This document shows, one piece after another, positions 8,624 to 64,000 of a stretch of 64,000 nt of DNA. A program made the position numbers and the translations under genes. The number at the start of each line of letters is the position of its first letter. The stretch's first letter is position 1. Under the pieces are notes generated by a model. It was not told the origin of the DNA. It searched no databases and saw only the letters and a program-made list of their open reading frames with translations. This DNA comes from Rhodosporidiobolus odoratus (taxonomy: Eukaryota; Basidiomycota; Microbotryomycetes; Sporidiobolales; Sporidiobolaceae), in the NCBI GenBank assembly GCA_034387635.1, contig JAOANU010000008.1, positions 806,001 to 870,000 on the forward strand, read 5' to 3'.

Positions 8624-8829
8624 ATGGCTCTGGATGCACAACACTGTCGTTCAGAGGATTCCGCATGTTGACGGCCGACAACATTTCTTGATGAAAGAGA
8701 CTATCGGCCACCGGAAGTGAGGAGAGAAAACGAAAACTGTGAGTAGGAATACAACAACGCGGTACGGATCTTGACCCTCGTGACCCCGCCGACACCCTCG
8801 TACTGATACAATGACCTCAAAGTGCGCTG

Positions 8830-9532
8830 CTACTCCTCCCCATCCCTCGACTCGTCGTCCTCCATCGATCCCTCATCCTGACTATCCTCCTCTCCAACCG
8901 CATCTCCGGCATTCTGCCCCGCGGGCGGTCCCGCATCCCCATGAGCATTGTGCATCGCATCCCTTTCCTCCTCATCCTCCTCCCTTTCAACTCTAGTCTT
9001 ACGTCCAAACAACCCTTTCAGGTGTAATTCCGTCCATTGTCGATCGAGAGGTTCGCCGAACGTGGTGCGGGAAAAGAGGTCCCGGAGTTCCAGCGAGGGC
9101 AGGGAGGTTGAGAGGGAACTGGAGTGGGTTGAGGGACCGTGGGAGAGTGAAGTTGGGTGGGTGGGTTGTCGACGTGAGGGGGAGGTTAGAGGGTTGGATT
9201 TGTAGGGGTTTCCGTAGGGGTAAGAGGGGTGCGCTTGAGAGGGTAGGATGGCTGCCGCGAAGTAAGGGACCAGTTCAATACGTATAGGGGAAGTGGAGGG
9301 TCAAAGATGGGAAGCGTACTCTCGTCGTCTTCGTCTTGGTAGGCGGGAAGAAGATGGGCGGGGAGGGCAATGTCTGCGGGGGCGAACGAAGTGAGCGAGC
9401 TCGCCATGGTAGAAGCTGAGGGCACATACCATCGTCTGGTAAGTCCCATCCTAGCTTGTCGTCCTCTTCATCGAGTAAGCGAGACGAGGAAGAGTAAGGC
9501 AAGTTGAGGTAAGAAAAGCGACCGTCCTGCAC
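8830..9532 (-). CDS. APC13: Probable anaphase-promoting complex subunit Apc13
   Basis: Small scaffold subunit that stabilises TPR subunits of the APC/C (family knowledge). The spliced product has exons 9532-9430, 9373-9320 and 9251-8830. It starts MQDGRFSYLNL and then reads LGWDLPDD joined to DIALPAHLLP, matching the Apc13 N-terminal pattern DGR..DDAW..D.(V/I)A(I/L)P...LP. After a Ser/Pro linker comes QWTELHLKGLF, matching the second conserved block KWTDLALQYL. The tail is acidic. Both introns use consensus donors (GTATGT, GTACGC) and restore frame exactly. The linker and tail make it longer (~190 aa) than human APC13 (74 aa). Assignment rests on two short motifs. Confidence 0.68.
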
Positions 9533-9800
9533 GACTTTTCACGGTAAGACGGTTATAGGACGTGTAAAAGTAGCATCTGCTCACGCTCATACTGCTCAGA
9601 CTACCTCAGTGTGAGATCGAGGGGTGCTAGGAGGGGAAACAGATGAGGATCGCTTCTCCTCCTGCTCTTTCCTGCACAGCTTCGTTGCCCAGGAGTGAGC
9701 CTATAATCTTGCCCTTATCACCTTATCGACGCATCTACGTGTTCCTGCAAGGGCCTCAACGCTCGTCGTGACTCGTACCCTTCGTCATCTCGACAACGAG

Positions 9801-11128
9801 ATGGACGTGCAGAACAGCGCTCAGCAGGACACGGGAAGCCTTGTACGCTAGACATTCCTGCCTGCATCGGTCTGTCAAGCTGACATGGTCATCGATAGGT
9901 CCTCCAGACGCCTAAGCTCTCATCTGCTGCCGTGGACCACTCCCCGCCAGACTCCATCAACCCCCGCCTCTCTCTACCAGATGAGCTCATCACTGTCATC
10001 TTCGACCATCTCTGGGACAGTCGTGCGACTCACCCGTCCCACAACGACGCCGTCTTCATCCCCATCGCCCATTCTTTCATCTTTTCTCGCCTTTCCCGTG
10101 TGAGCAAGACTTGGTGCCGCCTCGCCCGACCTTACCTACTGCGTGGCCTCGAAAGCGATGTGCCGATAGCGCTTTACAAGCAACTCGAAACAGATCAGAC
10201 TCCGGTTGTCGTCGAGATCGCCCATGTCTGTCCTACCCTTCCTTGCCTCGCTGCCCTGCACGGGCTTGAGGCCCTCGACAGCGATGACGAGACGCGAGCG
10301 TACCTCGCAATAGACGAAGCCGTACAGATCGAACAAGCCCTCCTGAAAGAACGTCTCGAGCTTGTTGCACCACATGTTCGGGGCCTCCACTTTGCACCTG
10401 ATACCGGGCACACCTGTGCACCCGACTCCGACGATCAACAACTTGTCATGTATCATCCAGGTGTCATCCTGTATCGTCTCCTCCCACCGCAGCCTATCCA
10501 CTTTCCTTTCCTCACGTACCTCGAAGTACACCTCACTGTCTACGGAGGGCTCGAACACATGCAGCAACTTGCTGCAGCGGCACCTCAGCTTCAAGTGGTC
10601 GTGATAAAACCCGATGGAACCACGCAGGACTTTATCTCGACTCTCCGTCCAACCTCCTTTGCCTTCACAACCTTGCGTGTTCTCGAGATTTACTGGGCCA
10701 AGTTGCCGTCGGACTATCTCATCGAATACGTCCTTCCTCTCCTCGTATATTCAAGCCGCCTCACCCTGCGTAAGCTTCACCTGGACTTCCAGCTCATCGA
10801 TGACGACCCCGATATCTATCCTCTCAAGAGCTTGTTTCCTCAGCCCTTCCCAGTCGTGAACGACTTTGCTTGCACGAGCCCACACGTGGCGTACGCTACG
10901 GACGACTTCCGCGAAACCTTTCCTTCCCTCCGAATCCTTCTTTTCTCTCCTTCGAGCAGTCACATTCTTCTGCCCACTCTCCCAAACTCTCTCGAGGTCC
11001 TCAGCCTTACACATGTCCGCGACGAGACCGTCCACGCCTTCAGCTATCACCTTTGCACCTGTTCACTTCCGCCAACCCTCCGCCGACTTCTGTTCGAGTG
11101 GGATGGTGATTTAGCTCGATCCCTCTAG
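9801..11128 (+). CDS. F-box-like protein with a disrupted C-terminus
   Basis: Likely adaptor of an SCF ubiquitin ligase. The ATG at 9801 opens a 14-codon exon (9801-9842). An intron (9843-9898) joins it to the main exon, where codon GTG at 9932 is internal. An F-box-like segment follows: LSLPDELITVIFDHLW, then SFIFSRLSRVSKTWCRLARP. The rest (~320 aa) has leucine-spaced repeats (FPFLTYLEVHL, TTLRVLEIYW, FPSLRILLFS, PNSLEVLSLTH) consistent with a degenerate LRR substrate-binding region. The frame ends at TAG 11126-11128, but coding-like sequence continues in another frame (next entry). No specific substrate can be inferred. Confidence 0.72.
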
Positions 11129-35827: not shown

Positions 35828-38585
35828 CTACTCTCTCCCACTGAGCAATCGCCAACCCTTGGCAGCAACCGCCCAACCACCCAAGAGCGAAATCCCAACC
35901 CTCCACACCCAAAGCCTTCCAACCTCTTGCACCCTCCTCGCCGCTCTCTCCCCTTCCTGCCCCGGCGGAATCCCTCCATTCATCACCCAATCCTCCTCAT
36001 CCAACTCACCATCACCCTGACTCCCTTCCAAGCTCGCGAGCCTCTTAGCTGCTCGATATCGGGCCGAACGCTTCGCCAGTGCCGCAATGAGGAGAAGGGG
36101 GGGTACGGCCAGGTTTAGAGGACTGGGTAGAGGAGGGGTTGAGAAAGCCCCTGCGAGGCTTTCTAGCCTCCTGGTCGACCCACCCCCTCCTCCTGGCCCG
36201 TGGCTCGGGGTCCCGCCTCCACTGCCGGACCCAGGAACAAAAGTAAAATACCGATTGACGGCCAATCGTTCCCTTCGAGCTCGAAAGGCGACTTCTCGAC
36301 CATAACGGTCCCAGTCGTCTAGATCGTCGAGTTCTCGACGTGGAGCGGAGGAAAGGGAAGAGGTGGAGGAGAAGGAAATCGATGAGGAAGGTTTGGGGGA
36401 GACGGAGGGTCGACCGCCGGAGAAGTAGGCGAGGACGATACCGAGGACTAGAGTGAACGCTAGGGAAGTTCGAGCTTCGATCGGGGAGGTTTGCGGTTTA
36501 GAGTTCAATGTCGAGGTTGAGAATGCCGCAGAAGAAGGTGAAGGGGGCAAGATACTGGAGGGGAAGAGGAGGAAGGCGAGTGCGTAGCCGGGATAATCGA
36601 GCTGGCCACTCAGGCTCCAGAGTAGGAGTAAACCAAAGATGAAGAAGTAAGCAGCGAATTGGATCAACCCTCCTAGGTTGGCTTCGAGACTTCGCAACGC
36701 TCGGTGACTGACGGGAACTCGCTTAGGCGGAGGTCGATATCCTACGTCGCGGCGTTTTCGGCCGTCGCGGAGCTTGTATAACTGCTGGTGGGTCGGGGTG
36801 CCGAAGGAAGGGAGATTTTGAGGGAGGACTCGAGAGGCGGCGAGAAAAGGGATGCTCCAGGCGAGGAGCGAAAGCGAGGTTGCGAGCAAGAACGAGGGTT
36901 TGTGATGCGGTGTCGCAATGTAGAATGCGAGGATTCGAAGGAAGAGCGAGACAGCGACGAGGGCGTGGTGCACGAGGGGAAGGAGAGTGGACGGCGACAA
37001 GGGAAGAGAGGATTGCGGGCCGCGGTGCAGCCATGCTCGACCGACTTCGCCTGCCCAGCCAAAGGTACCCGCAACCCATAGCCACCACACAAGCACTGAG
37101 AGTAAGCTCCAGCTCTTCGCTGGCCGGCGGGCGGTCTCGGGCTGTTCCGACGCATCGGGCGCGAGGGGGTTGAAAGCGTCGAAGTGGGAGTATGACGAGA
37201 ACATGAGGATGTAGATGGTGAGAAAGGCGTGTAAAGTCGATAGTATATACGTCTGGGTGTGGAGAATTCTTCAAACATGCCGTGGCATATTTCAGCATTA
37301 ACATGGGGAGGAAGACAAGCTAAACCACGTACCGAGGGGTCGAGAAGCGGTCTAGCTGGATGAACGCGTCCTTCCAGCTCAATGTATTTCGTCCGCTGCG
37401 ACGTGCAGGCGCTAGTCCATTTCGCCAAACATATTCAGTCGATGCAAGCACGACGGGGTGCGAGACCAAGTCTTCCGCTTCGACCAGTGGATTCGACGAC
37501 AGCGTGAGCAGAAGGTCGAGTGCTAATAGTCAGCTTGGATCAGTAAACTCGCTGTGTTTCGTATAAGGTGCCTCTCCTGACGAAAGAAGATACGCACAGC
37601 AAGTAGCCCGGTCCATCGAATCATAGTTGAGCGGGAAATCCCGAAACAACAGGGTAACCAGCGCATCCTCCTCGATCTCTTCCTCACTCGACTCGTGTGG
37701 CTGATCTCCGGTCAACAGGTAAGAGTCGAGCAAGCCTCCAACAACGGCATATAGCCTCTCTCCCAGTTCTCGCCGAGCCTTGAATATTCGGAGCTCGCCA
37801 TCCACGCCTCGGTCCGTTTCTTGTATCGTTCCGCGGTACTCCCCCTGGAGGGATATGAGAAGGGATAGAAGGGCCGCGAGGAAAAGGGCGGAAGGGGAGG
37901 TAAGGACAGTCGAGTCGAGACTTTGCGAGGACAGCGGTGAGGGGCGGGCTGGAAGTGTACCGCTGCTCGAAACGGATGTCGATGGAGTCGTTGGAGCGTA
38001 TGAAGAGTTGGTGGGAGTGATGGGCCGGTTCGTGGCGAGAATGCTTCCGCCGACCTCTGCTCCTGTCGCTACTCGACCCGGCCCCTGCGATCCGTTCAAG
38101 TCGGGCGAGAAGCGGTCCATGACGCTTCTATGCCGCTGCAAGCTGAAGACGCTCCGTAAGAAGGCCAGCTCCGCTTCGGCCTCTTCCAACGGCATGTCGG
38201 GCGGAAGGACGGGAAGACCGGGCGGTAAGGTGTACCCACGCGCCGCCAGTTCCGCCAGCAGTGCGAGAACCATCCCTTCAACGGTGATGTCGTCTTCGGT
38301 GAGGATTAGGCCGGCATGGGTGTTGAGCGAGCCGTTTGTCGAAGGAAGGGGTCGGGGGGAGGACACGGTCGGCACCGCGATTGGCGCCATGGAAAAAGCT
38401 GAGACTTGCTGAACCGGTCTAGATTGAGTATACGAGCCGTTGGGAGGCGTCCTTCCGGGTGTCCGATGAGATCGAGCAGTGTTGGACGAGCAAGAAGAGG
38501 AAGATGAGCGATCAGAGAAGCGAACTTGGCAGCTCCGGCGACTCCTTTCAACCACAGCTGAGTACCAAGGGAGGTTCTCGGACAT
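35828..38585 (-). CDS. Polytopic membrane protein of unknown function
   Basis: Not recognised. The ATG at 38585-38583 gives MSENLPWYSAVVERS, then a Ser-rich cytosolic region, EDDITVEGMVLALLAELAAR and a helical domain (LAALLSLLISLQGEYRGTIQ; LGERLYAVVGGLLDSYLLTG). Exon 2 (~37530-37330) encodes LDLLLTLSSNPLVEAEDLVS and EYVWRNGLAP. An acceptor inside gaag|AATTC (~37269) joins it to RILHTQTYILSTLHAFLTIY and the long last exon. That exon has several hydrophobic segments (SVLVWWLWVAGTFGWAG, FLLATSLSLLAWSIPFLAA, IQFAAYFFIFGLLLLWSL, SLAFTLVLGIVLAYFSGG, LLGGWAVAAKGWRLL). Joining the two large ORFs into one gene is my inference from splice phase. A partial, internally deleted copy lies at 44,354-45,192. 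Confidence 0.68.
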
Positions 38586-38616
38586 TCCCCGAAGCAACGG
38601 CTGAAAGGTCTGTAAC
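37884..38616. repeat. Segmental duplication, copy A (partner 44491-45223)
   Basis: These 733 bp, covering the 5' coding part of the membrane-protein gene and its upstream sequence, recur at 44491-45223 with a constant offset of 6,607. No difference was seen by eye. Homology continues past the insertions: 38611-38694 with 55022-55105, 39886-40111 with 55101-55324, and 40112 onward with 62811 onward. Confidence 0.9.
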
Positions 38617-40111
38617 CGTGTAACCTTTCCTTGCGCTATTTTTTTTTAACTGTTTCGAGCGGAACTAGGGCGATGATAGTCTCAGAACTCAGACTGAAGG
38701 GCGCACGCGGGTTGAGCTTGAAATCAAGAGCCGGGGCGAGTCACGAGCTTGCTGCGGTCGTAGTCGAGTGAGAGCGTAGGAAGCGAGGTAGCGGGAGAAA
38801 TAACTTTGAACGAGGTTCTCAGTTTCGATGAGAGAGAGAAAGCTAAGGAAAGGGAAAAGAGAGAAGCGACGCGTAGGTCGTTCTACGAGTGGAGGCAGGC
38901 TACAGAGAGCTAGATCAAGCAAGGCATCTATCCGTATGCGGCGATGAGACAAAGGAAGCGCCGGGGGAGGAGAGATGAAGGAGAGGAAAAGGGAAAAAGG
39001 GAAAGGAAACAAGTCACGAGAAAAAGGCCTGGGTTTGGCGAGGCGGGTCTGGACCGTTGGGGCGGCCTGCGTTAGGGCATATAATGGAGCGGGGAAAGTG
39101 GAAGAGGCAAGGGAGGAAGGTGGAGGGAGGGAATGGAATATGTAAGGTTGAGGTGAGGTGGCGGCGAGTGGCGTAGAACAGGGGGAAAGAGGTCGAGACC
39201 TTGCATCCTACCACCTTTAGAGGATGGGACCACGGTGGACGGGACGGAGCCGAGAAGGTTGAGGTCTTCGAGGTGAGGGAGGGTGGAAAGAGGTTGGTTG
39301 AGGTTTTGGTACGGTTCGTCGGGGTTTCTGTCCGCGGGGCTGTCGAGAACCAGGGCGCAGGCGTTTGTAAGCCGAGATAAAGTCGTCCGCGTACATTTCG
39401 TCCTCAGCTGTCCATTGGGCGTCGGATTCGGGGCGACCAAGGAATTTGACTAGGAAAAAGCGCTCGTTTCCGATCCACTTGTGCTTCAAGATAGCTTCAA
39501 CCTCGTATTGGTCGGTGTTGACGGGGGTTGGGGACTCGTCAATAAAGGAGCGCCGAGGGAAGAGGCGATCGTCGTTAGGGATGAACTCGCGAAGAAGGGA
39601 GCCGTTGACGACGGGGTGGATCTTGAATGCGGGAGGGAAGGCGAGCTCGTAAACGTCGTTCGGTAGACAACGATGGATTCGGTACGGGCCGATGAAATGA
39701 GGTCGGAACTTGCCCGAGAAAGACGGGGGGGGGGGGGGGGGGCGGCCTGCGTTAGGGCATATGATGGAGCGGGGGAAGTGGAAGAGGCGAGGGAGGAAGG
39801 TGGAGGGAGGGAATGGAATATGTAAGGTCGAGGTGAGGTGGCGGCGAGTGGCGTAGAACAGGGGGAAAGAGGTCGAGACCTTGCACAGACCCCCCTTTAA
39901 GTGACACGTCACCCGCCCCACAAGCCGAAGTTGGGGGAAGTTTAGGGGGGGGCTTGGAAAGGAGGGTGGAGTTCTGAGACTAGGGCGATGAGGCGGTCAG
40001 CGTAGGATATGGCGGTGGCTCTGGCTGGTGCAAGTCATCGCAAAGGCTGGCGCCCGGCCCTCCTACGGCTCAGTTGCTCAGCGGTAGCTAAGGTCACATT
40101 CAAGTTACCAC
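38611..40111. repeat. ~300-bp TG..CA repeat, copy A, split by an LTR-element remnant
   Basis: Sequence starting TGTAACCGTGTAACC and ending AAGTTACCAC, also found uninterrupted (apart from its right neighbour) at 55022-55324. Here it is split by the 38695-39885 insertion with CAGAC duplicated on both sides. The TG/CA ends suggest a solo LTR or small non-autonomous element, but I see no target duplication around the repeat itself. Confidence 0.7.
38695..39885 (-). mobile_element. Internally deleted Ty3/gypsy chromovirus remnant
   Basis: Flanked by a 5-bp duplication CAGAC (38690-38694, 39886-39890); copy B (55101-55105) has the empty site. Minus orientation. The 3' LTR spans 38695-39205. The internal part (39206-39735) keeps only the C-terminal end of pol: GKFRPHFIGPYRIHRCLPND, then a chromodomain (YEVEAILKHKWIGNERFFLV, GRPESDAQWTAEDEM), ending RPVHRGPIL with a stop ~16 bp before the LTR, where a purine-rich AAAGGTGGTAGGA could be the polypurine tract. 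The 5' LTR is cut to 39741-39885 (145 bp, matching 39061-39205) and meets pol at a run of ~18 G. It cannot transpose on its own. Confidence 0.82.
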
Positions 40112-40322
40112 CGTCTTTCCCGGCTGCTTGGAATCCTCAGTCTCTCCGCGTAGCTACTGCCCTGCCGTGGAAAAGGGAGCTAGTAAGGACGATGAGACGA
40201 CACATGGTGAGAAGTCTCGTGATTGCAGAGAGAAAAACGTGCTGAGAAGGAAAATCGAAACGAAGCTAACTGTACAACCACAGCCAGGCGAGCAAGGGAA
40301 GGAGGAGGATGCATACGTCTGC

Positions 40323-40403
40323 TCAAGCGAGCCTGTTGCCGCCCTGGCTCTTGCGACCCTTGGTCTTGTTCTTGTTGTCTTTTTTGCCCGCCTTCGCCTT
40401 GGA
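40323..40403 (-). other. Second, diverged terminal exon of the repeat-peptide gene
   Basis: Minus strand reads KAKAGKKDNKNKTKGRKSQG then GNRLA and TGA (40325-40323). It parallels the terminal exon at 40560-40676 (KAKGDKKNNDKNESKKGRKN then GGNRLA). Either a tandem-duplicated last exon now in the 3' UTR, or an alternative last exon. The copy-B equivalent lies at ~63,022-63,104. Confidence 0.55.
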
Positions 40404-40559
40404 ACGACAGAGCGAGCTGTGAGACTGGTGTCGTAAATTGCAGAATCAAAAACAGGCAAGAGGGAAGAAAATCGAAAACTAAGATGACTAGCACAACCAA
40501 ACCTGAGCAGGCAAGCAAGCACGGGAGAGAGAGAGCGACGATGTATCCAAATCTGGCGC

Positions 40560-42679
40560 TCAGGCGAGCCTGTTGCCACCCTTGTTCTTGCGACCCTTCT
40601 TGGACTCGTTCTTATCGTTGTTCTTCTTGTCGCCCTTGGCCTTGAAAGGAGCGGTCACATGGTCGTCGAAGGCGCGCTACAGCCAGTCGGCAAATTGTCA
40701 GTGAGGCAAAAGGGAAGAAGCGAGTGAATCAGGTGTACCTTTCCCACCGCAGGGGCCGGGGTTTTCACCTTAAGCTCTCCGGGGGCCACCTTTGCCACAT
40801 GGTCGTCGAAGGCGCGCTACAGCCAGTCGGCAAATTGTCAGTGAGGCGAAAGGGAAGAAGCGAGTGAATCAGGTGTACCTTTCCCACCGCAGGGGCCGGG
40901 GTTTTCACCTTAAGCTCTCCGGGGGCCACCTTTGCCACATGGTCGTCGAAGGCGCGCTACAGCCAGTCGGCAAATTGTCAGTGAGGCAAAAGGGAAGAAG
41001 CGAGTGAATCAGGTGTACCTTTCCCACCGCAGGGGCCGGGGTTTTCACCTTAAGCTCTCCGGGGGCCACCTTTGCCACATGGTCGTCGAAGGCGCGCTAC
41101 AGCCAGTCGGCAAATTGTCAGTGAGGCGAAAGGGAAGAAGCGAGTGAATCAGGTGTACCTTTCCCACTGCAGGGGCCGGGGTTTTCACCTCAAGCTCTCC
41201 GGGGGCCACCTTTGCCACATGGTCGTCGAAGGCGCGCTACAGCCAGTCGGCAAATTGTCAGTGAGGCGAAAGGGAAGAAGCGAGTGAATCAGGTGTACCT
41301 TTCCCACTGCAGGGGCCGGGGTTTTCACCTCAAGCTCTCCGGGGGCCACCTTTGCCACATGGTCGTCGAAGGCGCGCTACAGCCAGTTGGCAAATTGTCA
41401 GTGAGGCGAAAGGGAAGAAGCGAGTGAATCAGGTGTACCTTTCCCACCGCAGGGGCCGGGGTTTTCACCTTAAGCTCTCCGGGGGCCACCTTTGCCACAT
41501 GGTCGTCGAAGGCGCGCTACAGCCAGTCGGCAAATTGTCAGTGAGGCGAAAGGGAAGAAGCGAGTGAATCAGGTGTACCTTTCCCACCGCAGGGGCCGGG
41601 GTTTTCACCTTAAGCTCTCCGGGGGCCACCTTTGCCACATGGTCGTCGAAGGCGCGCTACAGCCAGTCGGCAAATTGTCAGTGAGGCGAAAGGGAAGAAG
41701 CGAGTGAATCAGGTGTACCTTTCCCACCGCAGGGGCCGGGGTTTTCACCTTAAGCTCTCCGGGGGCCACCTTTGCCACATGGTCGTCGAAGGCGCGCTAC
41801 AGCCAGTCGGCAAATTGTCAGTGAGGCAAAAGGGAAGAAGCGAGTGAATCAGGTGTACCTTTCCCACCGCAGGGGCCGGGGTTTTCACGTTAAGCTCTCC
41901 GGGGGCCACCTTTGCCACATGGTCGTCGAAGGCGCGCTACAGCCAGTCGGCAAATTGTCAGTGAGGCAAAAGGGAAGAAGCGAGTGAATCAGGTGTACCC
42001 TTTCCCACCGCAGGGGCCGGGGTTTTCACCTTAAGCTCTCCGGGGGCCACCTTTGCCACATGGTCGTCGAAGGCGCGCTACAGCCAGTCGGCAAATTGTC
42101 AGTGAGGCGAAAGGGAAGAAGCGAGTGAATCAGGTGTACCTTTCCCACTGCAGGGGCCGGGGTTTTCACCTCAAGCTCTCCGGGGGCCACCTTTGCCACA
42201 TGGTCGTCGAAGGCGCGCTACAGCCAGTCGGCAAATTGTCAGTGAGGCGAAAGGGAAGAAGCGAGTGAATCAGGTGTACCTTTCCCACTGCAGGGGCCGG
42301 GGTTTTCACCTCAAGCTCTCCGGGGGCCACCTTTGCCACATGGTCGTCGAAGGCGCGCTACAGCCAGTTGGCAAATTGTCAGTGAGGCGAAAGGGAAGAA
42401 GCGAGTGAATCAGGTGTACCTTTCCCACTGCAGGGGCCGGGGTTTTCACCTTAAGCTCTCCGTGGGCCACCTTTGCCACATGGTCGAAGGCCCGCTACAG
42501 CCAGTCGGCAAATTGTCAGTGAGGCGAAAGGGAAGAAGCGAGAGGCAGCAAAAAAGTCAACATGGCAATTGCGGAGCGGAGGAAGGGCAAGGAGAACGCA
42601 CAGCAGGCTCAGCGAGAGCCGGGAGGGCGGAAAGACTGGCGCCGGTGAGGGTAAGAGCGGTGAGGATGGAGAAACGCAT
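40560..42679 (-). CDS. Secreted Kex2-type repeat peptide precursor built of thirteen one-exon repeats
   Basis: ATG 42679-42677. Exon 1 (42679-42602) encodes a signal peptide: MRFSILTALTLTG, ASLSALPALA, EPA. After a 107-nt intron come thirteen exons (42494-42420, then every 140 bp to 40816-40739). Each is 78 nt, phase 0, encoding RAFDDHVAKVAPGEL plus KVKTPAPAVGK, and is followed by a 62-nt intron with donor GTACAC, branch-like CACTGAC and acceptor TGTAG. Each splice joins ..VGK to RAF.., making a Lys-Arg site, as in Kex2-processed precursors (mating factors, repellents, RiPP precursors). The last exon (40676-40560) starts RAFDDHV, then switches to a Lys/Asn-rich tail ending GGNRLA. The first repeat has His for Pro and lacks one Asp codon. 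The exon at 41999-42077 is 79 nt and would shift the frame. Peptide function unknown. Confidence 0.72.
40739..42494. repeat. 140-bp tandem exon+intron array, 13 units (copy A)
   Basis: Period 140 bp (one 141-bp unit at ~41,999, last unit 137 bp). Units differ at a handful of sites only, in exon and intron alike, so they have been homogenised recently. Every unit spans one full exon and one full intron. Confidence 0.95.
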
Positions 42680-43070
42680 GTCGTTGTGGTGTCGAGGTCG
42701 AGGTCGAGGTGGTGAGGTGGTGGAGGAGAGCGGAGGAGAGCGGAGGAGAAGCTGAGAACAGAGGAAGGTGTGTGAAGAAGAGAGAGAGGCGATATTCCGG
42801 CGCGCCGATTGTAGCCGTCTCGAGGTAGAATGTTTAGCCAAACATCGCAATATGAAATCCGCCGGCGGTTGGAAACCAAATCTGGGTTCGGTCCGAGGTG
42901 GTCCTGCTACGGAGTGTCGCGGAGGTGATTCCTGAATGGACCGCATGAGCCAAAGGAAGCGTTGACTGATTCACCCCAGGCGGGAAAAGCGATGAATCAT
43001 GGAAGCATCGAGGAGGGGAAGCATGAATGCTGAGGTGAAAATGATGGCAGTGCATTCACCTTGAGCGCAC
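42680..43070. promoter_or_regulatory. Upstream region of the repeat-peptide gene
   Basis: On the minus strand the 5' flank is CT-rich (42,690-42,780), as in the leaders of highly expressed genes of this genome. The other end runs into the truncated PRP17 fragment, so the promoter may be partly built from foreign sequence. No defined site recognised. Confidence 0.4.
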
Positions 43071-44352
43071 GTTCTGCTTGAACGTGTCAGCTCCGAACAG
43101 CAAGATCTGGTTGTCGAGCGAAGTTGCTGCGAGCCACTTGCCTGCAACAGCCAAAGCGGAAGAGGAGTCAGCACAAGACGTTTAACCTGCATGATCGACT
43201 CATGGTGAAAAGAAGACGAAGAAAACAACGCAAACGCACCATTCGGATGAACCCCGACAGCCGGCATACTATGCATAGCCGGATCGGCAATCAATTTGAT
43301 TGGTACCGGGATATCGAAATCCCAAACCCTCATAGTCTTGTCATCACTAGTCGTAACGAATCGACGATTCTCGTCCACAAACGTGATCGTGTTGACCGGT
43401 CCGAGATGTTGGTCGTATTTTTGGGTGATCTGGTTCGAACGGATGTCGTACTACCCAACGAATGAAGAGTGAGATGCGTGTGTGGGTGAGGTGGGAGGAG
43501 ACGTGGACGGAAGACGCACCTGGATAACCTTCTTGTCACTCATACCCGCCAAGAACGTATGCTGTTGTTCCGGATGTAACTTGATGCCACACGGAATCTT
43601 GCCATTCGAGAAAGCGGCTTTGCACTGACCTACCAGTCTCCACACGAGAAAAAAAAAAGGAGGGGTCAGCAATTTAGCTCGTTCACACACGCAACGGAGC
43701 AGGAAAGGAATGAACGCACCCGTCTCGGTATCCCACAACTTCATCTGTCGATCAAAAGCGGCACTGAGGAATTCACCTCAGAATTGTTGAACTCGACGTC
43801 GTGAACGGCTTTCGAGTGACCCATGAAAGTACGAAGACAATTCCCTTCGCGGTAGATGTCCCAGAGCTACTCGATAATGCGAGGAAGAGTTCGAGTACGC
43901 CGTCGAGTGTAGTCAGCCAAAGCGACGAAAGGCTCGAGGGAGTAAGATGACCACGTACCTTGATCCTCGTATCCAAACTAGCACTAAGTACCATATGTCC
44001 ACTAGTAGGGAACAACCTAATCCGACTGACCCCCTTCGTGTGACCACTCCAGGTATGAATGCACTTCTTGGGAACGAAGGATTCAATCCCATCGTCCAGA
44101 GTTCGGGGTTTGTCGAGTCGTTCAGCTGAGGTAGGGAGAAGGATGTCGGCGGAAGTGGGGATGGAGAGGTAGGTCCGACCGAGGTAGTCGTGCGTTTCTT
44201 TGGCTGTGGGTCGCGCGAGGGAGGAGGAGGAGAGCCAGGGCAAGCGCGAAGCAGAGAGACGCGGTAGACAGGCAGGTAAATGACGAGCGAGCCGCAAAAT
44301 CAGATACTGGTCCATGACAAAGCGATGTGGAGATACGCACCGTGCAACACTC
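43071..44352 (-). pseudogene. PRP17: Fragment of splicing factor PRP17/CDC40 (WD40)
   Basis: Middle of the second-step splicing factor Prp17. Reads [131 protein letters not shown] and [15 protein letters not shown]. Homology begins exactly at the 44,352 breakpoint and stops after ~43,071, so the N-terminus and last WD repeats are missing. One base is lost near 43,772: EFNNSE runs out of frame before GEFLSAAF. Introns are retained, so this is a DNA-level duplication rather than a retrocopy. A complete PRP17 should exist elsewhere in the genome. Confidence 0.85.
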
Positions 44353-44353
44353 C

Positions 44354-45192
44354 TCCTAGGTTGGCTTCGAGACTTCGCAACGCCCGGTGGCTAACGGGGA
44401 CTCGCTTAGGCGGAGGTCGATATCCTACGTCGCGGCGTTTCCGCCCGTCGCGGAGCTTGTATATCTGCTGGTGGGTTGGGGTACCGAAGGAAGGGCGGAA
44501 GGGGAGGTAAGGACAGTCGAGTCGAGACTTTGCGAGGACAGCGGTGAGGGGCGGGCTGGAAGTGTACCGCTGCTCGAAACGGATGTCGATGGAGTCGTTG
44601 GAGCGTATGAAGAGTTGGTGGGAGTGATGGGCCGGTTCGTGGCGAGAATGCTTCCGCCGACCTCTGCTCCTGTCGCTACTCGACCCGGCCCCTGCGATCC
44701 GTTCAAGTCGGGCGAGAAGCGGTCCATGACGCTTCTATGCCGCTGCAAGCTGAAGACGCTCCGTAAGAAGGCCAGCTCCGCTTCGGCCTCTTCCAACGGC
44801 ATGTCGGGCGGAAGGACGGGAAGACCGGGCGGTAAGGTGTACCCACGCGCCGCCAGTTCCGCCAGCAGTGCGAGAACCATCCCTTCAACGGTGATGTCGT
44901 CTTCGGTGAGGATTAGGCCGGCATGGGTGTTGAGCGAGCCGTTTGTCGAAGGAAGGGGTCGGGGGGAGGACACGGTCGGCACCGCGATTGGCGCCATGGA
45001 AAAAGCTGAGACTTGCTGAACCGGTCTAGATTGAGTATACGAGCCGTTGGGAGGCGTCCTTCCGGGTGTCCGATGAGATCGAGCAGTGTTGGACGAGCAA
45101 GAAGAGGAAGATGAGCGATCAGAGAAGCGAACTTGGCAGCTCCGGCGACTCCTTTCAACCACAGCTGAGTACCAAGGGAGGTTCTCGGACAT
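44354..45192 (-). pseudogene. Truncated copy of the polytopic membrane-protein gene
   Basis: 44354-44495 matches 36671-36812 and 44491-45223 matches 37884-38616. About 1.07 kb between those source segments is deleted; the two parts share aagg/gggcggaa-like microhomology at the join. It keeps the ATG and the first ~240 codons, then enters a foreign frame. It lacks the membrane segments and is not expected to be functional. The 9.8-kb transposon sits 26 bp upstream of its start codon. Confidence 0.85.
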
Positions 45193-45223
45193 TCCCCGAA
45201 GCAACGGCTGAAAGGTCTGTAAC

Positions 45224-45820: not shown

Positions 45821-47435
45821 ATGCCTGGCCAGCAAGCCACCTTCGATGCCCTTCTGCAAGAATGGTCGGCCACGATCGAGCGGGCGGCACTCGCCCTGTC
45901 CACCAGTGCCGGCGATCGCCTGCGACTTGAGCGCTACTTGCTCCAACTTGATCGTATAGACCGCCAAATCGAAGGCACCCCGACCACTTTCCTCTCGTTG
46001 GATCGAGCAGGAGTCATGCGATCTCAGCTGTTGTCGATCCACCTGGCACTGAGCGCTGCTCATTGAGTAGCGACTGATTCTACAGTAACTGCCCACTTGG
46101 CACCCCTCCTGCCTTCCGTGGTTGACCCATTGGGAGTGCGTCCGCAAATCGACATCAACCCTACCTTTCTCGATTTCACCGTCAATTCGCTGCATTATGG
46201 TCCTTCCCGCATAGCACGCCTAATCGAGGCCACTACAGGCCGTTCAGTATCGGCCAGATCAGTCAGGCGAAGGATTGTGGAGCAGGGACTGCGTCAACCG
46301 GAAGAAGAGACGGTTCACCACGACAACCTCTCCTCGGAAGAGCTGGACGAGCTGGTGCTGGAGCTTAGGGCAAAGCAACCGGAGGCTGGAATACTCTATA
46401 CTGTCGGCCATCTAAATGCCCTGGGGCTGTATCCGCCACGCGACGCAGTTCGCGCGTCCCTCTCCCGACTTTTTCCCTTTTAGAACTTTCCTCTCAGAAT
46501 CACACCAGTCGTTCCGCCAACGCCAAGTCTACAAGGTTGCCGGTCCCAACTCCGTCTGGTATCTCGACGGACAGCACGAACTGGTCAATTTTGGGATCGT
46601 CGTTCACGGTATTGTTGATGGCTATTCAAGAATGATCACAGGCTTGAGGGCAAGCTCGGATAATAGGGCAGAGACCATGCTTAGTGGATTTCTGGATGCC
46701 ACAGAGAAGAATGGAGTGCCGTCTCGCGTACGAGGGGACCGCGGTGGGGAGAATGTACAGGTTGCATACTGGTTGACAGAATTCAGGGGAGCAGGCCGGG
46801 GTTCCTTTCTCTGGGGAACGTGCGTGCTGGGCTTCAGTACTTTGCCTTGACCTGTGCTGAGGTTGTCCTTTCTCACTACTTGCAGGTCCCCTCACAATAC
46901 TCGCATTGAGCGTCTCTGGCCAGAAGTTGTTCGATCAGTTCTCGGCACGTGGTATGCCACCTTCCTGCACCTCAGAGACGAGCACGGTTACGACCCTACC
47001 CTTTCCCATCACATCTGGCTCGGCACCCTTCTCTTCCTTCCTTCTATCAATGCCGAAATGGAGCTCTTCCGGGAGCAATTCAACCATCATCCCCTGTCCT
47101 CTGAACATTACAAGCGGCCTGTCGAGCTGTTCTTTGAGGGCATGCATACCGCTGGTGTCAGAGGCTTCTGGTCCAAAGGCGGAGCGCGGCAGTACCCTGG
47201 GGAAGAAGCCGTGGAGGAACTCAACTATGGAGTTGAGAGGTTGCAGCAAAGTGAGGAGGAGGAGGTCACAGGTCAGGTGGAGTTGGACGTGCGCAACCCT
47301 TTTGCTGGACTGGGGGGTCATCCGGAGCAAGTGATACTGGCACGCACCCTTGAACAGAACTTTGGTCTCCCAGAGGAAAAATGGGTATGTGGGTTGGGGA
47401 TTATGCTGGAACTCATGGATGAGTATGGAATATAA
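45821..47435 (+). pseudogene. rve-type DDE transposase/integrase-like gene, frame-broken
   Basis: Catalytic-core protein of the transposon. An N-terminal piece (MPGQQATFDALLQEWSATIE, 45821-46066) is followed by a helix-turn-helix-like region (LHYGPSRIARLIEATTGRSV then SARSVRRRIVEQGL). The DDE core reads GPNSVWYLDGQHELVNFGIV (first D), GIVDGYSRMITGL, VPSRVRGDRGGENVQVAYWL (second D), and after an intron (~46,821-46,887) SPHNTRIERLWPEVV (E). A downstream domain (LRDEHGYDPTLSHHIWLGTL, FREQFNHHPLSSE) is typical of these eukaryotic integrase-like proteins. Frame breaks at ~46,066-46,100 and at 46,484 (T-run before TTTAGAAC) are not repaired by a normal intron. All three catalytic acids remain, so decay is recent, or the breaks are sequence errors or unseen introns. 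Confidence 0.72.
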
Positions 47436-55742: not shown

Positions 55743-57038
55743 ATGACTACCCCCGAAGCCGTAGCTGTGGGGCTCGGGCTCATCACCGCCGACGACCTCG
55801 CCCAGCAAGGAGGTTCCCTCGACAACCGCCAACATGCCGAACTCACTCAACGCCTCTATCAACAAGCACTCGCTCATCCTCCTTCCGCCCCGCCCCCTGC
55901 TACGGCCCCCACTTAGCTCCAACTACAAGACTTAGCCGCCCAGATGGCAGTCCTTAGCGCGGCAAACGACGACCTCCGCCGACGCCTCGAAACCCCCACT
56001 CCCCAGTCCGACTCCACCATCGACTGGCACTCCCTGGGTCGGGCCTTCAAAGAAGCCTGGGCTAGCGAAGGTGCCTCCTCAGTCGGCTCCCCCCTCGCCC
56101 GCATCAAGGTCAAGGAGCCCGACACCTACAACGGTTCCCGGAACGATAAGTCGGACATTAACATCTTCGTCTCCCAAATCAAGAATTACGTTCAGGACAC
56201 CAAGGGATGGATCGACGACGCGCACAAGGTCCGGGTTTGCTTGGGTTACCTCAAAGGCAAGCCCTATCTTTGGATCTCCTCGTATCTCGCCCTCCCCGAC
56301 GAGGAACGTCTCCAACCTGAGCTCGCTTTCCTCTCCGACTTTGAACAGTTCTGCGCCCTTCTCCTCGTCACCTGGGGCGACCCCAACAAGAAGGCTGCGG
56401 ACGCCCGCCGCCTCCGCCAACTTCGCCAAACCACCTCTGCCGCCCTCTATGCGTCCGAATTCCGCCGTCTCTCCCTTACCCTCAACTGGGGGATGGAGGC
56501 CCTTCTCTTCCAATTCACCGAGGGTCTCAAGGACGATCTCAAAGACGAACTCGCCCGGCTCGACCCGATCCACGAGCTCACTGCCCTCATGAACAAAGCC
56601 ATCACTATCGATAATCGCCTTTTCCAGTGCCGCCTCCAGAAGGGGCACCGTTCGTACTCGTTGCTCTACGTCCCTCAGGCGACGCCTGCGTACTCCTCCG
56701 CCCCCGACGTCTCCCCGGAAGACCGTATGCAGGTCGACTCCACCCATAAACCTCGCCCCACTGCCTCGCCGCGCCGAGGCCCTCTTTCTCCCGCTGACAA
56801 GGAGTTCTGTCGCAAGAATAACCTTTGTTCCTACTGCGGTGTCGCGGGGCACTACGCCGACAACAACTGCCCGGCTCTTCAGCGTCGTGACGCCCTTCGC
56901 AACTCAGCCGCAAAGCCCCTCCGTACGGCCGCCGCCACCTTTTCGATCACTTTGTCGCAGGCCCCCGCGGCTACCGAGGAGCCCACTCAACCCAGCACCG
57001 GCTCGGGAAACGAGCCCCGCCCGACGGAACAGGTTTGA
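55743..57038 (+). pseudogene. gag: Chromovirus gag with a premature stop
   Basis: ATG 55743 opens MTTPEAVAVGLGLITADDLA. An in-frame TAG at 55914-55916 (probably from CAG) interrupts it, and the frame continues (LQLQDLAAQMAVLSAAND). Capsid-like segment: YNGSRNDKSDINIFVSQIKN, LGYLKGKPYLWISSYL, RRLRQLRQTTSAALYASEFR. Zinc knuckle CSYCGVAGHYADNNC is C-x2-C-x4-H-x5-C, one residue longer than the usual x4. Ends TEQV, TGA 57036-57038. Roughly 430 codons including the stop. Confidence 0.9.
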
Positions 57039-57129
57039 TAGGTTCGTCCTCTCCGCCAGGCGTCTCTCCCATTCCCATCGCCACTAACTCCTTTGCTGTT
57101 CTCTCTTCCCCCGACACTCTCAGTTCTGA

Positions 57130-59271
57130 ATCTGTACTCCTTCTGTGCTCCCCACCTTCACCCCTAGCCTATCTGTTACCCACAATTCCTCCCCCGCTCT
57201 CGAAGAACACCTTGTCCTCCCGGTCCGTTTATCCCACAACGCTGTTGTCGCCGACACATTCGCTATGGTAGACTCTGGATCTCAAGGTAATCTACTCGAT
57301 GAACACTACGCCCGCTCGCTTCGCCTGCCTCTTGTACGACGAGAGGTACCCATCCCCGTCGAATCCTTCGACGGCCACACCAACGCCTCTTCCGCGCTCT
57401 CTTACTACACCGCTCCTCTACAGCTCCAGATTGGAGGACACGTAGAAACGATTGAGTTTAACCTCTCCCACGTCGCTCACTACCCCATCATCTTGGGGAT
57501 TCCCTGGCTGCGCGCTCACGACGTTTCCCTCCACCTGCAGGAAAACCGTGTCGCCTTCCGGTCACCTTTCTGTCGCCAGCACTGCCTACCTAGCCCCGTC
57601 GTCCCAGTTGTCCCGGCCGTTTCCGCCGCCACCGTTGTTGCCGCTGCCGTCTTGGCAGAAGGCAAGCCCCGTCCACGTTGCCCAAACATCGCCAAGCCCG
57701 CCGTCCTCCGTCCCGCCGTTGCCCCCGCTGCGCCTGTCGTCCACATGATCTCCGCCGCCGCCGCCCGACTCGCCCTCCGCCAGGGTGCCCAAGGTTTTAC
57801 GTTCGCCGCCGCCGACATTGTCCCCCGCCTTCGCTCCGCCGCTGCCGCCGTCCGACGAGGCGGATCCACCGCCGTTCCCGACGAACTCGACGCCCTTCGT
57901 AAGCAGATCCCTTCCAAGTACCATGAATGGTTGGACGTCTTCTCGAAGCAGGACGCTGACTCCCTCCCGTCGCATCGCCCTTACGACCTGAAGATCAAAG
58001 TAGAAGAAGGCAAGAACATCCCCTCCTCCAAAATCTATCCTCTGTCAGCGGCTGAGATGGAGGTACTCGCCGATTATATCGAGACGAACCTCCGCTCTGG
58101 CTTTATTCGCCCCTCGAAGTCCCCCGTGGGTTTTCCCATCCTTTTCATCAAGAAAAAGGACGGCTCTCTACGGCTCTGCGTCGACTACCGGAACTTAAAC
58201 TCAGTCACTGTCAAGAATCGGTACCCGCTGCCACTAATATCCGATACTCTCGATCAACTTGCCGGCGCAAAGTTCTTCACCAAGCTTGACCTTCGCAACG
58301 GCTACCACCAAATGCGGATGGCTCCTGGACACGAATGGAAGACGGCTTTCCAATCTCGGTACGGGTCCTTCGAGTATCAAGTCATGCCGTTCGGCCTCAC
58401 TAACGCGCCCGCTGCCTTCCAGCACCTCATCAACGACACCTTCCGCCCCTTCCTCGATGCCTTCGTGGTCGTCTACCTAGACGACATCCTGGTCTACTCC
58501 AACACGCAGGAAGAGCACGACGATCACGTTCGGCGAGTCCTGGACAAGATGAGGGAGGCACGGTTGTTTGCGAAGGCCGAAAAATGTACCTTTGACGACG
58601 TTTCAACCGAGTATTTAGGCTTCATCGTGGACCGGCAAGGCGTCCGCATGGATCCCAAGAAGCTCGATTCGGTGAGCACTTGGCCGGTCCCATCCACCCT
58701 GAAGGAAGTCCAGCCGTTCCTGGGGTTCGCTAACTTCTACCGCCGGTTCATCCAAAACTATTCCCAGATCGCTCACCCTCTGACCCGCCTTACCCGCAAA
58801 GGCACCTCATTTGCCATGGACAGCAGCGCCCTTGCCGCCTTTCACGCGCTCAAGGCCGCCTTCGACCCAAATATCGTCCTTCGCCACTTCGACCCGGCAC
58901 TGCCCATAGAGCTCGAAACCGACACCTCCGACTACGCTTTAGGCTCCGTCCTCTCTCAACGTCACGCCGATGGGAAGCTCTACCCAGTGGCGTTCCGGTC
59001 CCACAAGTTCGACGGCGCTGAACTCAACTACGAGGTTCACGATCAGGAGTTGTTGGCCATCATCGACGCCTGCAAAGCGTTCTGTCCCTATCTTGAGTAC
59101 GTCCACCTGCCCACTACCGTCTACTCCGACCACGCCAACCTCCAGTATTTCTTCAGCTCCCGCGTGCTAAATCGTCACCAAGCACGGTGGTACGAGCTGG
59201 TCGCTGAGCTGTCCCTCGTTCTCCGCCACCGACCCGGCCATAGGCAAGGAAAGACGGACGCTCTCTCTTGA
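57130..59271 (+). pseudogene. pol: Chromovirus pol: protease, reverse transcriptase, RNase H
   Basis: Protease motif MVDSGSQGNLL; RT motifs KKDGSLRLCVDYRNLN, GAKFFTKLDLRNGYHQ, YQVMPFGLTNAPAAF and the catalytic VVYLDDILVYS; tether FLGFANFYRRFI; RNase H LETDTSDYALGSVLSQ and VYSDHANLQYFF. All RT acids are kept. Between gag and protease, coding-like sequence (TNSFAVLSSPDTLSSESVL) lies in a third frame, so two shifts separate gag from pol. TGA at 59269-59271 interrupts DALS where Arg is usual, and the integrase follows in another frame. Confidence 0.92.
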
Positions 59272-59327
59272 CGAGCCAACTACGCTGAGGGTTCCAAGGC
59301 GTCGGCGTTTTCTTCCCCGGCAGCAAG

Positions 59328-60410
59328 TTGGGTGTCGACAGCGTTCGCCGGCGGCAAGGTCCCTTACTTGTCCTCGCCCCCGCGAGACTCGCACGTAACC
59401 TAGACGATTCGTTCCCCGCGCTCTCCGAACTCACCACGGTCGCCCAGGATCAAGACGACGATCTCCGCCAGGTCCTTCAAGACTTGCGCCTGCAGGAGAA
59501 CCTCGAAGACCACAACCCCCGCTGGAGTATCGACGACGCGGGTCTACTACGCTGGGACGGTAAGGTATACATCCCCGATGTCGAAGACTTACACCTTCGC
59601 GCCGTCCGAGAATCGCACGACGTCCCTTTGGCGGGCCACCACGGGGTGGAAAAGACACTCGGACGTTTCCGCCGCACGGGCTACTTCCCAGGGGCTCGCA
59701 AGTTCGTTGAGCAGTACGTCTCCAGCTGCGAAGACTGCTTCCGCAACAAGTCGCGGCGCTCACCCCCGCATGGCCTCCTTCAACCTCTCCCGCCGCCGAG
59801 CCGACCATGGAGTTCAATTGCGCTTGATTTCATCGTGAAGCTGCCGGTATCTCAAGAAGGGAACGACTCCATTCTGGTAGTAATCGACCGTTTCACCAAG
59901 TTCGCCCATTTTATCCCCTGCGCGGAGGCAGGTACTGACGCCCCCCACTTTGCACGCCTCTTCTACAATAACATCCTGCCCCTTCACGGTCTTCCCGACA
60001 ACATAGTCTCCGGCCGAGGAGCGGTTTTCGACTCGGCATTCTGGCAAACGCTGTCGCAGCTCACTCAGCAATAACTAAGTATGTCCACCGCCTACCATCC
60101 CCAAAGCGACGGAGTTACGGAGCGCCTCAATCAGACGCTTGAACAGTACTTACGCATGTATGTGAACTACCAGCAGGACGACTGGCAGAGCCTTCTCCCA
60201 TTGGCCGCCTTCGTAAACAACGACACCGTCCACTCTGCAACGAAATCGACGCCCTTCTTCGCTTCCTACGGTTATCATCCGAAGTTCAACGTCTCCTTCG
60301 ACCGCTTGGACGACAAGTACTGCAACGCCGACGCCACCGCCTTTGCCAGCCGACTCATGACTCAAGTCAAGTCCTCCGCCACGAGCTCGAACAAGCTGCC
60401 GTTCGGATGA
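59328..60410 (+). pseudogene. Chromovirus integrase, catalytically altered and frame-broken
   Basis: HHCC zinc finger (RESHDVPLAGHHGVEKT with YVSSCEDCFRNK), then the core: SIALDFIVKLPVSQEGND keeps the first Asp. The second site reads NIVSGRGAVFDSAFW, where Gly (GGC 60012-60014) replaces the expected Asp. TAA 60072-60074 interrupts the frame before [20 protein letters not shown], which carries the catalytic Glu. The frame is lost again at ~60,375 (SSNKLPFG, stop 60410). Confidence 0.9.
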
Positions 60411-60958
60411 AAGCACAAGCCGACCAGCATAGGCGCGACGCCCCGAGCTTCGATATTGGAGATCTGGTATGGCTCAGCAGTCGCAACATCCGCACCAACC
60501 GACAATCACAGACACTCGACCACAAGTTCTTGGGACCCTACCCGGTAGCTGCCAAGGTAGGGCCTTCGGCGTATCGTCTCACGTTGCCACCCGACGTCCG
60601 CTTACACCCGGTTTTCCACGTGTCCCTACTGCACCCCCACCGCGACAACCCCTTCCCTGACCGGCTTCCCTCTCCGCCCCCTCTCACTATCATCGATGGC
60701 CAGCCAGAACTTGAAGTCCAAGACGTACTCGATTCGCAGACCTACTACGGAAAGCTGCGGTATCTTGTCCGCTGGCGTGGTATGACACCGCGAGACGACT
60801 CGTGGGAGCCGGCCAAAAACATGGAAAACGCCGCCGACATCGTACGAGCCTTCCACGACGAATACCCCAATAAACCTGCCAAAGCTGCTGAGCGCCGGAG
60901 CGCTCGAGCTAAAGCAGGGGGGGGATTGGCGGCTCTCATCGAAGCCCAGCGGCACTAA
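60411..60958 (+). pseudogene. Chromovirus integrase C-terminus with chromodomain
   Basis: In the next frame: [56 protein letters not shown] (GPY/F region), then a chromodomain: ELEVQDVLDSQTYYGKLRYL, VRWRGMTPRDDSWEPAKNM. The residues VQDVLD, LRYLVRW and DSWEP correspond to the conserved chromodomain core that guides insertion to heterochromatin in chromoviruses. Basic tail ends AALIEAQRH, TAA 60956-60958. Confidence 0.9.
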
Positions 60959-63258: not shown

Positions 63259-64000
63259 TCAGGCGAGCCTGTTGCCACCCTTGTTCTTGCGACCCTTCTT
63301 GGACTCGTTCTTATCGTTGTTCTTCTTGTCGCCCTTGGCCTTGAAAGGAGCGGTCACATGGTCGTCGAAGGCGCGCTACAGCCAGTTGGCAAATTGTCAG
63401 TGAGGCGAAAGGGAAGAAGCGAGTGAATCCGGTGTACCTTTCCCACCGCAGGGGCCGGGGTTTTCACCTTAAGCTCTCCGTGGGCCACCTTTGCCACATG
63501 GTCGTCAAAGGCGCGCTACAGCCAGTCGGCAAATTATCAGTGAGGCGAAAGGGGAGAAGCGAGTGAATCAGGTGTACCTTTCCCACCGCAGGGGCCGGGG
63601 TTTTCACCTTAAGCTCTCCGTGGGCCACCTTTGCCACATGGTCGTCGAAGGCGCGCTACAGCCAGTTGGCAAATTGTCAGTGAGGCGAAAGGGAAGAAGC
63701 GAGTGAATCAGGTGTACCTTTCCCACTGCAGGGGCCGGGGTTTTCACCTCAAGCTCTCCGTGGGCCACCTTTGCCACATGGTCGTCGAAGGCGCGCTACA
63801 GCCAGTTGGCAAATTGTCAGTGAGGCGAAAGGGAAGAAGCGAGTGAATCAGGTGTACCTTTCCCACTGCAGGGGCCGGGGTTTTCACCTCAAGCTCTCCG
63901 TGGGCCACCTTTGCCACATGGTCGTCGAAGGCGCGCTACAGCCAGTTGGCAAATTGTCAGTGAGGCGAAAGGGAAGAAGCGAGTGAATCAGGTGTACCTT
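63259..64000 (-). CDS. Repeat peptide precursor, copy B (5' part beyond window)
   Basis: Second copy of the 40,560-42,679 gene, truncated by the window edge. Terminal exon 63375-63259 (RAFDDHV, then the Lys/Asn-rich tail ending GGNRLA, stop 63261-63259). Repeat exons at 63438-63515, 63578-63655, 63718-63795 and 63858-63935, then the edge of a fifth. Every visible exon is 78 nt with a 62-nt intron and no frame defect. Units here read KVAHGELKVK (His) where most copy-A units have Pro. Signal-peptide exon and promoter not visible. The diverged second terminal exon is also present (~63,022-63,104). Confidence 0.72.

Follow-up and report, generated by a model that had tools for sequence, protein, structure and literature searches.

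Two tandem-array genes of Rhodosporidiobolus odoratus, A1 and A2, probably encode secreted precursors processed by Kex2, in which each 26-residue repeat is one phase-0 exon, the introns are short, and the last exon supplies a Lys-rich tail. As modelled from the DNA, the pre-mRNA would be spliced so that the joining of two modules completes a Lys-Arg (KR) site with Gly before it (GK|R). The precursor would then enter the secretory pathway, where the kexin encoded by this genome would cut after each KR, and a carboxypeptidase would trim the KR to leave about ten 24-residue peptides per precursor. Because the module edges are in phase 0, the gain, loss or skipping of a whole module would keep the frame and change only the number of peptides.

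The window, i.e. the whole stretch of DNA that we analysed, is 64,000 nucleotides long and corresponds to C8:806001-870000 in a genome of 24.8 Mb and 45 contigs. Coordinates below are window positions unless they are prefixed with a contig.

Layout of the array gene A1

A1 lies on the minus strand and runs from 42679 to 40560, with an exon carrying the ATG and a signal-like peptide, 13 exon-plus-intron modules, and a Lys-rich last exon. Exon 1 (42602..42679, minus strand, 78 nt, phase 0 at its end) codes for MRFSILTALTLTGASLSALPALAEPA, which is made up of the signal-like peptide MRFSILTALTLTGASLSALPALA and then EPA. Judged by eye, MRFSILTALTLTGASLSALPALA has a basic start, a hydrophobic core and small residues at the likely cut. 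The exon 1 donor reads GTGCGTTC. Intron 1 (42495..42601, minus strand, 107 nt) has the form GT...AG and closes with the same 48 bases as a module intron. The exon of module 1 (42420..42494, minus strand, 75 nt, RAFDHVAKVAHGELKVKTPAPAVGK) is one codon short and reads RAFDHV where the other modules have RAFDDHV. From the intron of module 1 to the intron of module 13 (40677..42419, minus strand) there are twelve further module exons and thirteen introns. The last exon (40560..40676, minus strand, 117 nt) codes for RAFDDHV and the Lys-rich tail TAPFKAKGDKKNNDKNESKKGRKNKGGNRLA, and ends in TGA.

The initial annotation had described this gene as a signal-peptide exon followed by 13 modules of one 78-nt exon and one 62-nt intron. 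The module number held, with TRF giving a 140-bp period (13.5 copies, 98 per cent matches, score 3618), and so did the introns, all thirteen of which have 62 nt (GTACACC...CTGTAG). The exons, however, are 78 nt long in only eleven of the thirteen cases, the exceptions being module 1 (75 nt) and module 4 (79 nt). Read without splicing, the minus strand across A1 is interrupted by 22 or 23 stops in each frame, and its longest open run is at most 63 codons. Arrays of this kind are rare in this genome: twenty sampled 10-kb stretches of C1 and C2 (200 kb of the 24.8 Mb) yielded thirty-four TRF rows, of which a single one had a period of at least 30 (period 30, 1.9 copies).

In the spliced model, the donor AAG|GT stands in phase 0 and gives an exon-final Lys, and the next exon opens with CGC or CGT for Arg. 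The sequence supports the earlier description of a secreted-type precursor (the exon 1 product being signal-like by eye) with a phase-0 exon per repeat and the KR completed at the junction. The further claim that every splice makes GK|R is right for the module junctions but not for the first one, which is EPA|R, so that the first released piece would begin EPAR.

One base breaks this pattern. The exon of module 4 (41999..42077, minus strand, 79 nt) has an extra G ahead of its donor, within a run of G at 41998-42000. If the usual donor is used, the reading frame is displaced and runs into a stop in exon 5, so A1 as assembled lacks a single open spliced frame; it would have one only if the module 4 exon were skipped or the extra base came from an assembly error. 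Without such skipping, only the first four modules of the assembled gene would be read in frame. The extra G is either a real base or an assembly error, and a single base in a G run fits an error too. Besides this base, the initial annotation had missed the second array, which sits at the window's right edge, and the existence of Kex2-processed repeat proteins (KEPs) as an established fungal class.

A second array and two paralogues without arrays

A2 occupies C8:869259-871116 on the minus strand (63259-65116 on the window scale); 63259..64000 falls in the window, and the 5′ part is outside it. It has a signal-like exon, eleven modules and a last exon, and is open in frame through all thirteen exons. 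Its module 1 comprises a 75-nt exon and an 81-nt intron, and the ten others have 78-nt exons and 62-nt introns. The 81-nt intron of module 1 (L009 ~8777-8857, reverse strand) contains an apparent internal duplication of 19 nt relative to the 62-nt introns, and the frame is unaffected.

Outside the modules, A1 and A2 are nearly identical (3′ flank 98.9%, intron 1 97.2%, 5′ flank 98.7%, signal exon 77/78 or 98.7%, last exon 117/117), which points to a recent duplication. The modules themselves tell the two genes apart, since APG occurs in twelve of the thirteen A1 modules and AHG in ten of the eleven A2 modules (Fisher p = 9e-5, a value that treats modules as independent, which they are not). 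Given that the flanks differ by only 1.1-1.3 per cent, this split suggests that A1 and A2 were each homogenised or expanded separately, a reading that the sequences support. There is also a weak hint of a block pattern within A1: comparison of modules 2-6 with modules 9-13 (lag 7) gave 0, 0, 0, 2 and 1 differences, and an equally good lag appeared in 2 per cent of order shuffles of twelve modules (permutation p = 0.02). Among the twenty-one full-length modules, six of the 78 exon columns and five of the 62 intron columns are variable, and two variable codons among the module exons alter the residue. With variation spread equally over exon and intron columns, coding constraint is not detectable within the arrays themselves.

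In the DNA search of the genome that placed the window, all nine matches were on C8, as were all twenty matches of a protein search with the paralogue G3, both counts being among the best candidates scored. G3 (C8:883373-885040, plus strand, twelve exons) and G4 (C8:887514-889061, plus strand, eleven exons) have a signal exon and a tail exon like those of A1 and A2 but no array. Both genes lie outside the window, beyond the reach of the initial annotation, and we drew their models by hand from homology and splice signals. In these models, phase 0 is found in all twenty-one introns (eleven in G3 and ten in G4), and the six KR sites of the two genes all lie on exon junctions. G3 intron 1 (C8:883451, L011 1652) starts with GC where G4, A1 and A2 have GT, which makes it either a GC-AG intron or a sign of a damaged gene.

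By codon comparison, the exons of G3 and G4 are under purifying selection. Between the two genes, dN is 0.147 and dS 0.662 (NG86, 275 codons), and differences at codon positions 1, 2 and 3 number 39, 32 and 98. Eleven exon pairs are identical at 676/825 positions, compared with 369/580 for nine intron pairs (single pairs 48% to 77%); shuffled introns have a mean identity of 55 per cent. These counts exclude G3 exon 9, G3 introns 8 and 9, and G4 intron 8, because exon order differs there.

A search of a collection of 5.8 billion proteins with G4 gave a sole hit among 7988 candidates scored. This protein, P0001, is the R. odoratus hypothetical protein JCM11641_005562 (NCBI). It shares 289 of 299 aligned residues with G3 and covers the exon chain; like G3 it has a signal, LGKRA sites and a tail, and unlike A1 and A2 it has no array. 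Where G3 has a 65-nt intron, P0001 has twenty-two additional residues, which we read as a sign that one intron was taken for coding sequence in its annotation. Our belief in the gene model of the arrays draws on the purifying selection on G3 and G4, on the phase-0 introns, and on this R. odoratus protein over the exon chain.

Other searches returned little. The whole A2 array protein had no match at E ≤ 10 among 7998 candidates scored, and residues 1-104 of A1 matched only P0001 (E 0.06, 26 per cent of the query, 7999 candidates scored). For a shortened array protein, no PDB chain was found at E ≤ 1, and two sub-threshold Pfam matches, DUF4290 (19.1 bits against a cut-off of 27) and SBDS_C (16.4 against 27), were taken as chance. 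G3 had no Pfam match, and no Rfam family reached its cut-off within the window.

Origin of the module and its neighbourhood

The second part of the module exon agrees with G4 exon 4 at 51/57 bases; between the module intron and G4 intron 4 the figure is 51/61, above every G3-G4 intron pair. The array would have grown from one exon-plus-intron unit related to G4 exon 4 and intron 4, and growth by repeat duplication, which the initial annotation had proposed, accords with the sequence. The end that A1 intron 1 shares with the module intron would fit a loss of early exons through a join inside introns; the 5′ portion of A1 intron 1, when aligned with G4 intron 1, was not clearly alike (local score 12). 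We found no source for the RAFDDHV half of the module, either with up to three mismatches in stretches L010 and L011 or with up to four substitutions in the 95.7-kb region outside both arrays.

Positions 40403-40655 are 89 per cent identical to the 3′ end of G4, and past the A1 stop a leftover second tail exon and 3′ region (40222..40403, minus strand) is 81 per cent identical to the 3′ end of G3. We read this succession of G4-like and then G3-like pieces downstream of the A1 stop as a putative fusion scar. Within the paralogues, some exons resemble one another more closely than in all 300 codon shuffles, namely exons 5 and 8 and exons 7 and 11 in G3, and exons 3 and 8, 5 and 8, and 7 and 10 in G4. 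No other pair of G3 or G4 exons, from exon 2 onward, passed the 300 codon shuffles. From these likenesses, duplication of exon blocks probably predates the arrays.

The surroundings hold several further features. A small related gene with the motif YGSGR..Q.YG, its protein pieces read by hand, is found on the upstream side of G3, G4 and A2 and shares their orientation, with L011 copies at ~C8:882183-882871 and from ~C8:886474, and the A2-side copy at L009 ~9520-10000 on the reverse strand. The G3-side copy had no Pfam match. This gene was not seen upstream of A1, where the similarity to A2 stops at 43066. Adjoining the copied segment of A1, 43064-44350 holds a partial copy of a WD40 gene, 91.6 per cent identical to C8:874342-875630, which we take to be PRP17-like. 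A1 is also flanked by a 733-bp repeat with 100 per cent identity (37884-38616 and 44491-45223), which reflects a very recent duplication, conversion or an assembly effect. Ty3-type retroelement frames (gag, reverse transcriptase/RNase H, chromodomain) occupy 55917-60958, a further chromodomain frame is found at 39217-39996, and an integrase-core frame at 46851-47435 (Pfam rva_4, E 5e-21).

Predicted processing, rival readings and known systems

Kex2 cleaves after KR, and Kex1 trims the KR. A kexin gene is present at C3:1186.6 kb, where Peptidase_S8 and P_proprotein are above their cut-offs in two frames of one locus, and a hydrophobic stretch can be made out by eye close to the tail. The predicted peptide AFDDHVAKVAPGELKVKTPAPAVG and its variants have twenty-four residues, opening AFDDHVAKV, continuing A[P/H]GEL[K/E/N]VK and ending TPAPAVG. 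Computed monoisotopic masses are 2416.3 Da (P/K form) and 2457.3 Da (H/E form), and computed average masses of three peptide forms range from 2417.8 to 2458.7. Our guess, held at slightly better than even odds, is a bulk peptide of the surface or medium rather than a hormone, because the peptide body differs widely between paralogues and the PxxxxGKR end is kept.

By their repeat pattern, both arrays fall within published descriptions of KEPs. As worded in the available text of PMC7329392 (2020), a KEP has three or more tandem repeats, each of 8 to 100 residues, between Kex2 sites; A2 has eleven modules of 25-26 residues with a KR every twenty-six, and A1 has thirteen if module 4 is read without the extra base. 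The corresponding rule in PMC6339444 (2019) asks for four or more fragments upon cleavage at KR or RR, with three or more of them sharing one pattern, and A2 (11 KR) and A1 (13 KR) agree with it by direct count of their KR sites. The same organism encodes a kexin at the C3 locus, a further mark of a KEP.

It is unlikely, in our judgement, that the spliced protein is secreted and functions in uncut form, as a wall or matrix protein that is repetitive and contains Lys and Pro, with the junction KR a by-product of an AAG|GT donor followed by CGC. The ten internal exons of G3 and nine of G4 speak for such a by-product, as all end in Lys whether or not Arg follows, and KR arises only where the next exon starts with R. 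G4 moreover has three KR against 2.85 expected from composition, so in that gene only position and context speak for a site. The arrays pull the other way, with a KR every twenty-six residues (thirteen in A1, with module 4 read without the extra base, and eleven in A2, where shuffles have a mean of 1.9); in addition, the KR sites of A1, A2, G3, G4 and P0001 share the context [VT]P[AD]xx[LV]GKRA, and a kexin is encoded. We regard it as rather unlikely that the arrays are a decaying by-product, that is, a minisatellite inside a KEP paralogue, with the non-array paralogues as the working genes and A1, perhaps also A2, as pseudogenes kept uniform by recombination. A2 is open through its thirteen exons, no phase-0 stop occurs in the twenty-four module exons of A1 and A2, and the signal-like exons and last exons of the two genes match at 77/78 and 117/117 bases; with so little divergence, each of these points has little power. 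Decay would in turn fit the frame-breaking base in module 4, the equal variability of exon and intron columns among modules, and the surroundings, which are rearranged and contain Ty3-type frames as well as duplicated pieces.

That the peptide is a mating pheromone, or else a dikaritin-like cyclised RiPP, seems very improbable. A multi-copy, KR-delimited precursor does recall ascomycete alpha-pheromone and ustiloxin precursors, and, in the available text of PMC7329392 and PMC6339444, some basidiomycete KEPs bear alpha-pheromone signatures. The STE13 signature of XA or XP after KR is nevertheless absent from the arrays, whose repeats start AF and whose core lacks Tyr and Cys; in G3, one of three KR sites is followed by AA, and this repeat border, shared with P0001, fits XA. 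In its available text, PMC6339444 describes basidiomycete sexual pheromones as not derived from KEPs. The genome gave no match to UstYa (DUF3328, PF11807), a weak point since fourteen control genomes gave none either. As to a C-terminally amidated peptide, whose precursor would have a G-KR end and whose maker would encode an amidating monooxygenase (PF01082, PF03712), GKR stands at the KR sites of all four genes and P0001, and the enzyme was matched neither in the genome nor in the controls.

Beyond the preferred reading of A1 and A2 as Kex2-processed precursors, we tentatively entertain a peptide-dose cassette. In such a cassette, the junction would write the protease site, germ-line repeat number and exon skipping would together set the yield in frame, and module 4 would be tolerated by skipping. 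Exon-block duplication would then be the general mode of the family, with Kex2 units of several exons in G3 and G4 and of one exon in A1 and A2.

The product of A1 and A2 is not a new class of molecule. Fungal KEPs, in the available text of PMC6339444 and PMC7329392 and of a 2022 study of Agaricomycete KEPs (PMC9769878), resemble A1 and A2 in having at least three repeats between Kex2 sites and presumed release by kexin, and they carry a signal peptide where A1 and A2 have a signal-like exon. What sets A1 and A2 apart is that each repeat is one phase-0 exon of an exon-plus-intron array. The main texts of PMC6339444 and PMC7329392 nowhere mention introns, exons or splicing and have no word on introns relative to repeats. 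That of PMC9769878 does so once, where cDNA served to amplify intron-less KEP sequences; this implies that KEP genes contain introns but says nothing of their positions. On these texts, the statement of the initial annotation that known repeats lie within one exon is neither borne out nor refuted. Among the open-licence papers that our searches listed, no title announced a fungal gene with a separate exon for each Kex2 repeat.

Closer parallels in gene structure come from animals. In frog skin peptide precursors (caerulein, magainin, CPF and hymenochirins; PMC3899252, as far as its available text goes), tandem-duplicated exons code for nearly identical peptides; according to the authors, output may be controlled through alternative splicing or cleavage, and concerted evolution may be at work. 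Those precursors differ from the arrays in being vertebrate, with no known sequence relation, and in having a repeat of two exons (2 and 3). The pacifastin precursors of insects and Trichoplax, in the portions of PMC2689174 consulted, are multi-domain and secreted, with dibasic sites common in insects, and exon duplication and splice variants change their domain number; they are, however, animal proteins with Cys-rich inhibitor domains and, in Trichoplax, two exons per domain. A jellyfish gene has six exons and five peptides, and the accessible part of PMC11122761 does not state one peptide per exon. With exon-repeat secreted precursors known from frogs and pacifastins, the principle is not new to biology, but building a secreted repeat precursor exon by exon looks unusual in fungi.

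If spliced as modelled, the arrays would be a fungal case where the units of repeat, splicing and proteolysis coincide, and would offer a simple route to copy-number change without frameshift. They would also be a natural test of the spliceosome on a dozen near-identical exons and introns in series. Since KEP surveys begin with predicted proteins, precursors assembled from numerous very small, identical exons could escape correct prediction and be under-counted, and the annotation of R. odoratus, through P0001, may show a mild form of such mis-prediction.
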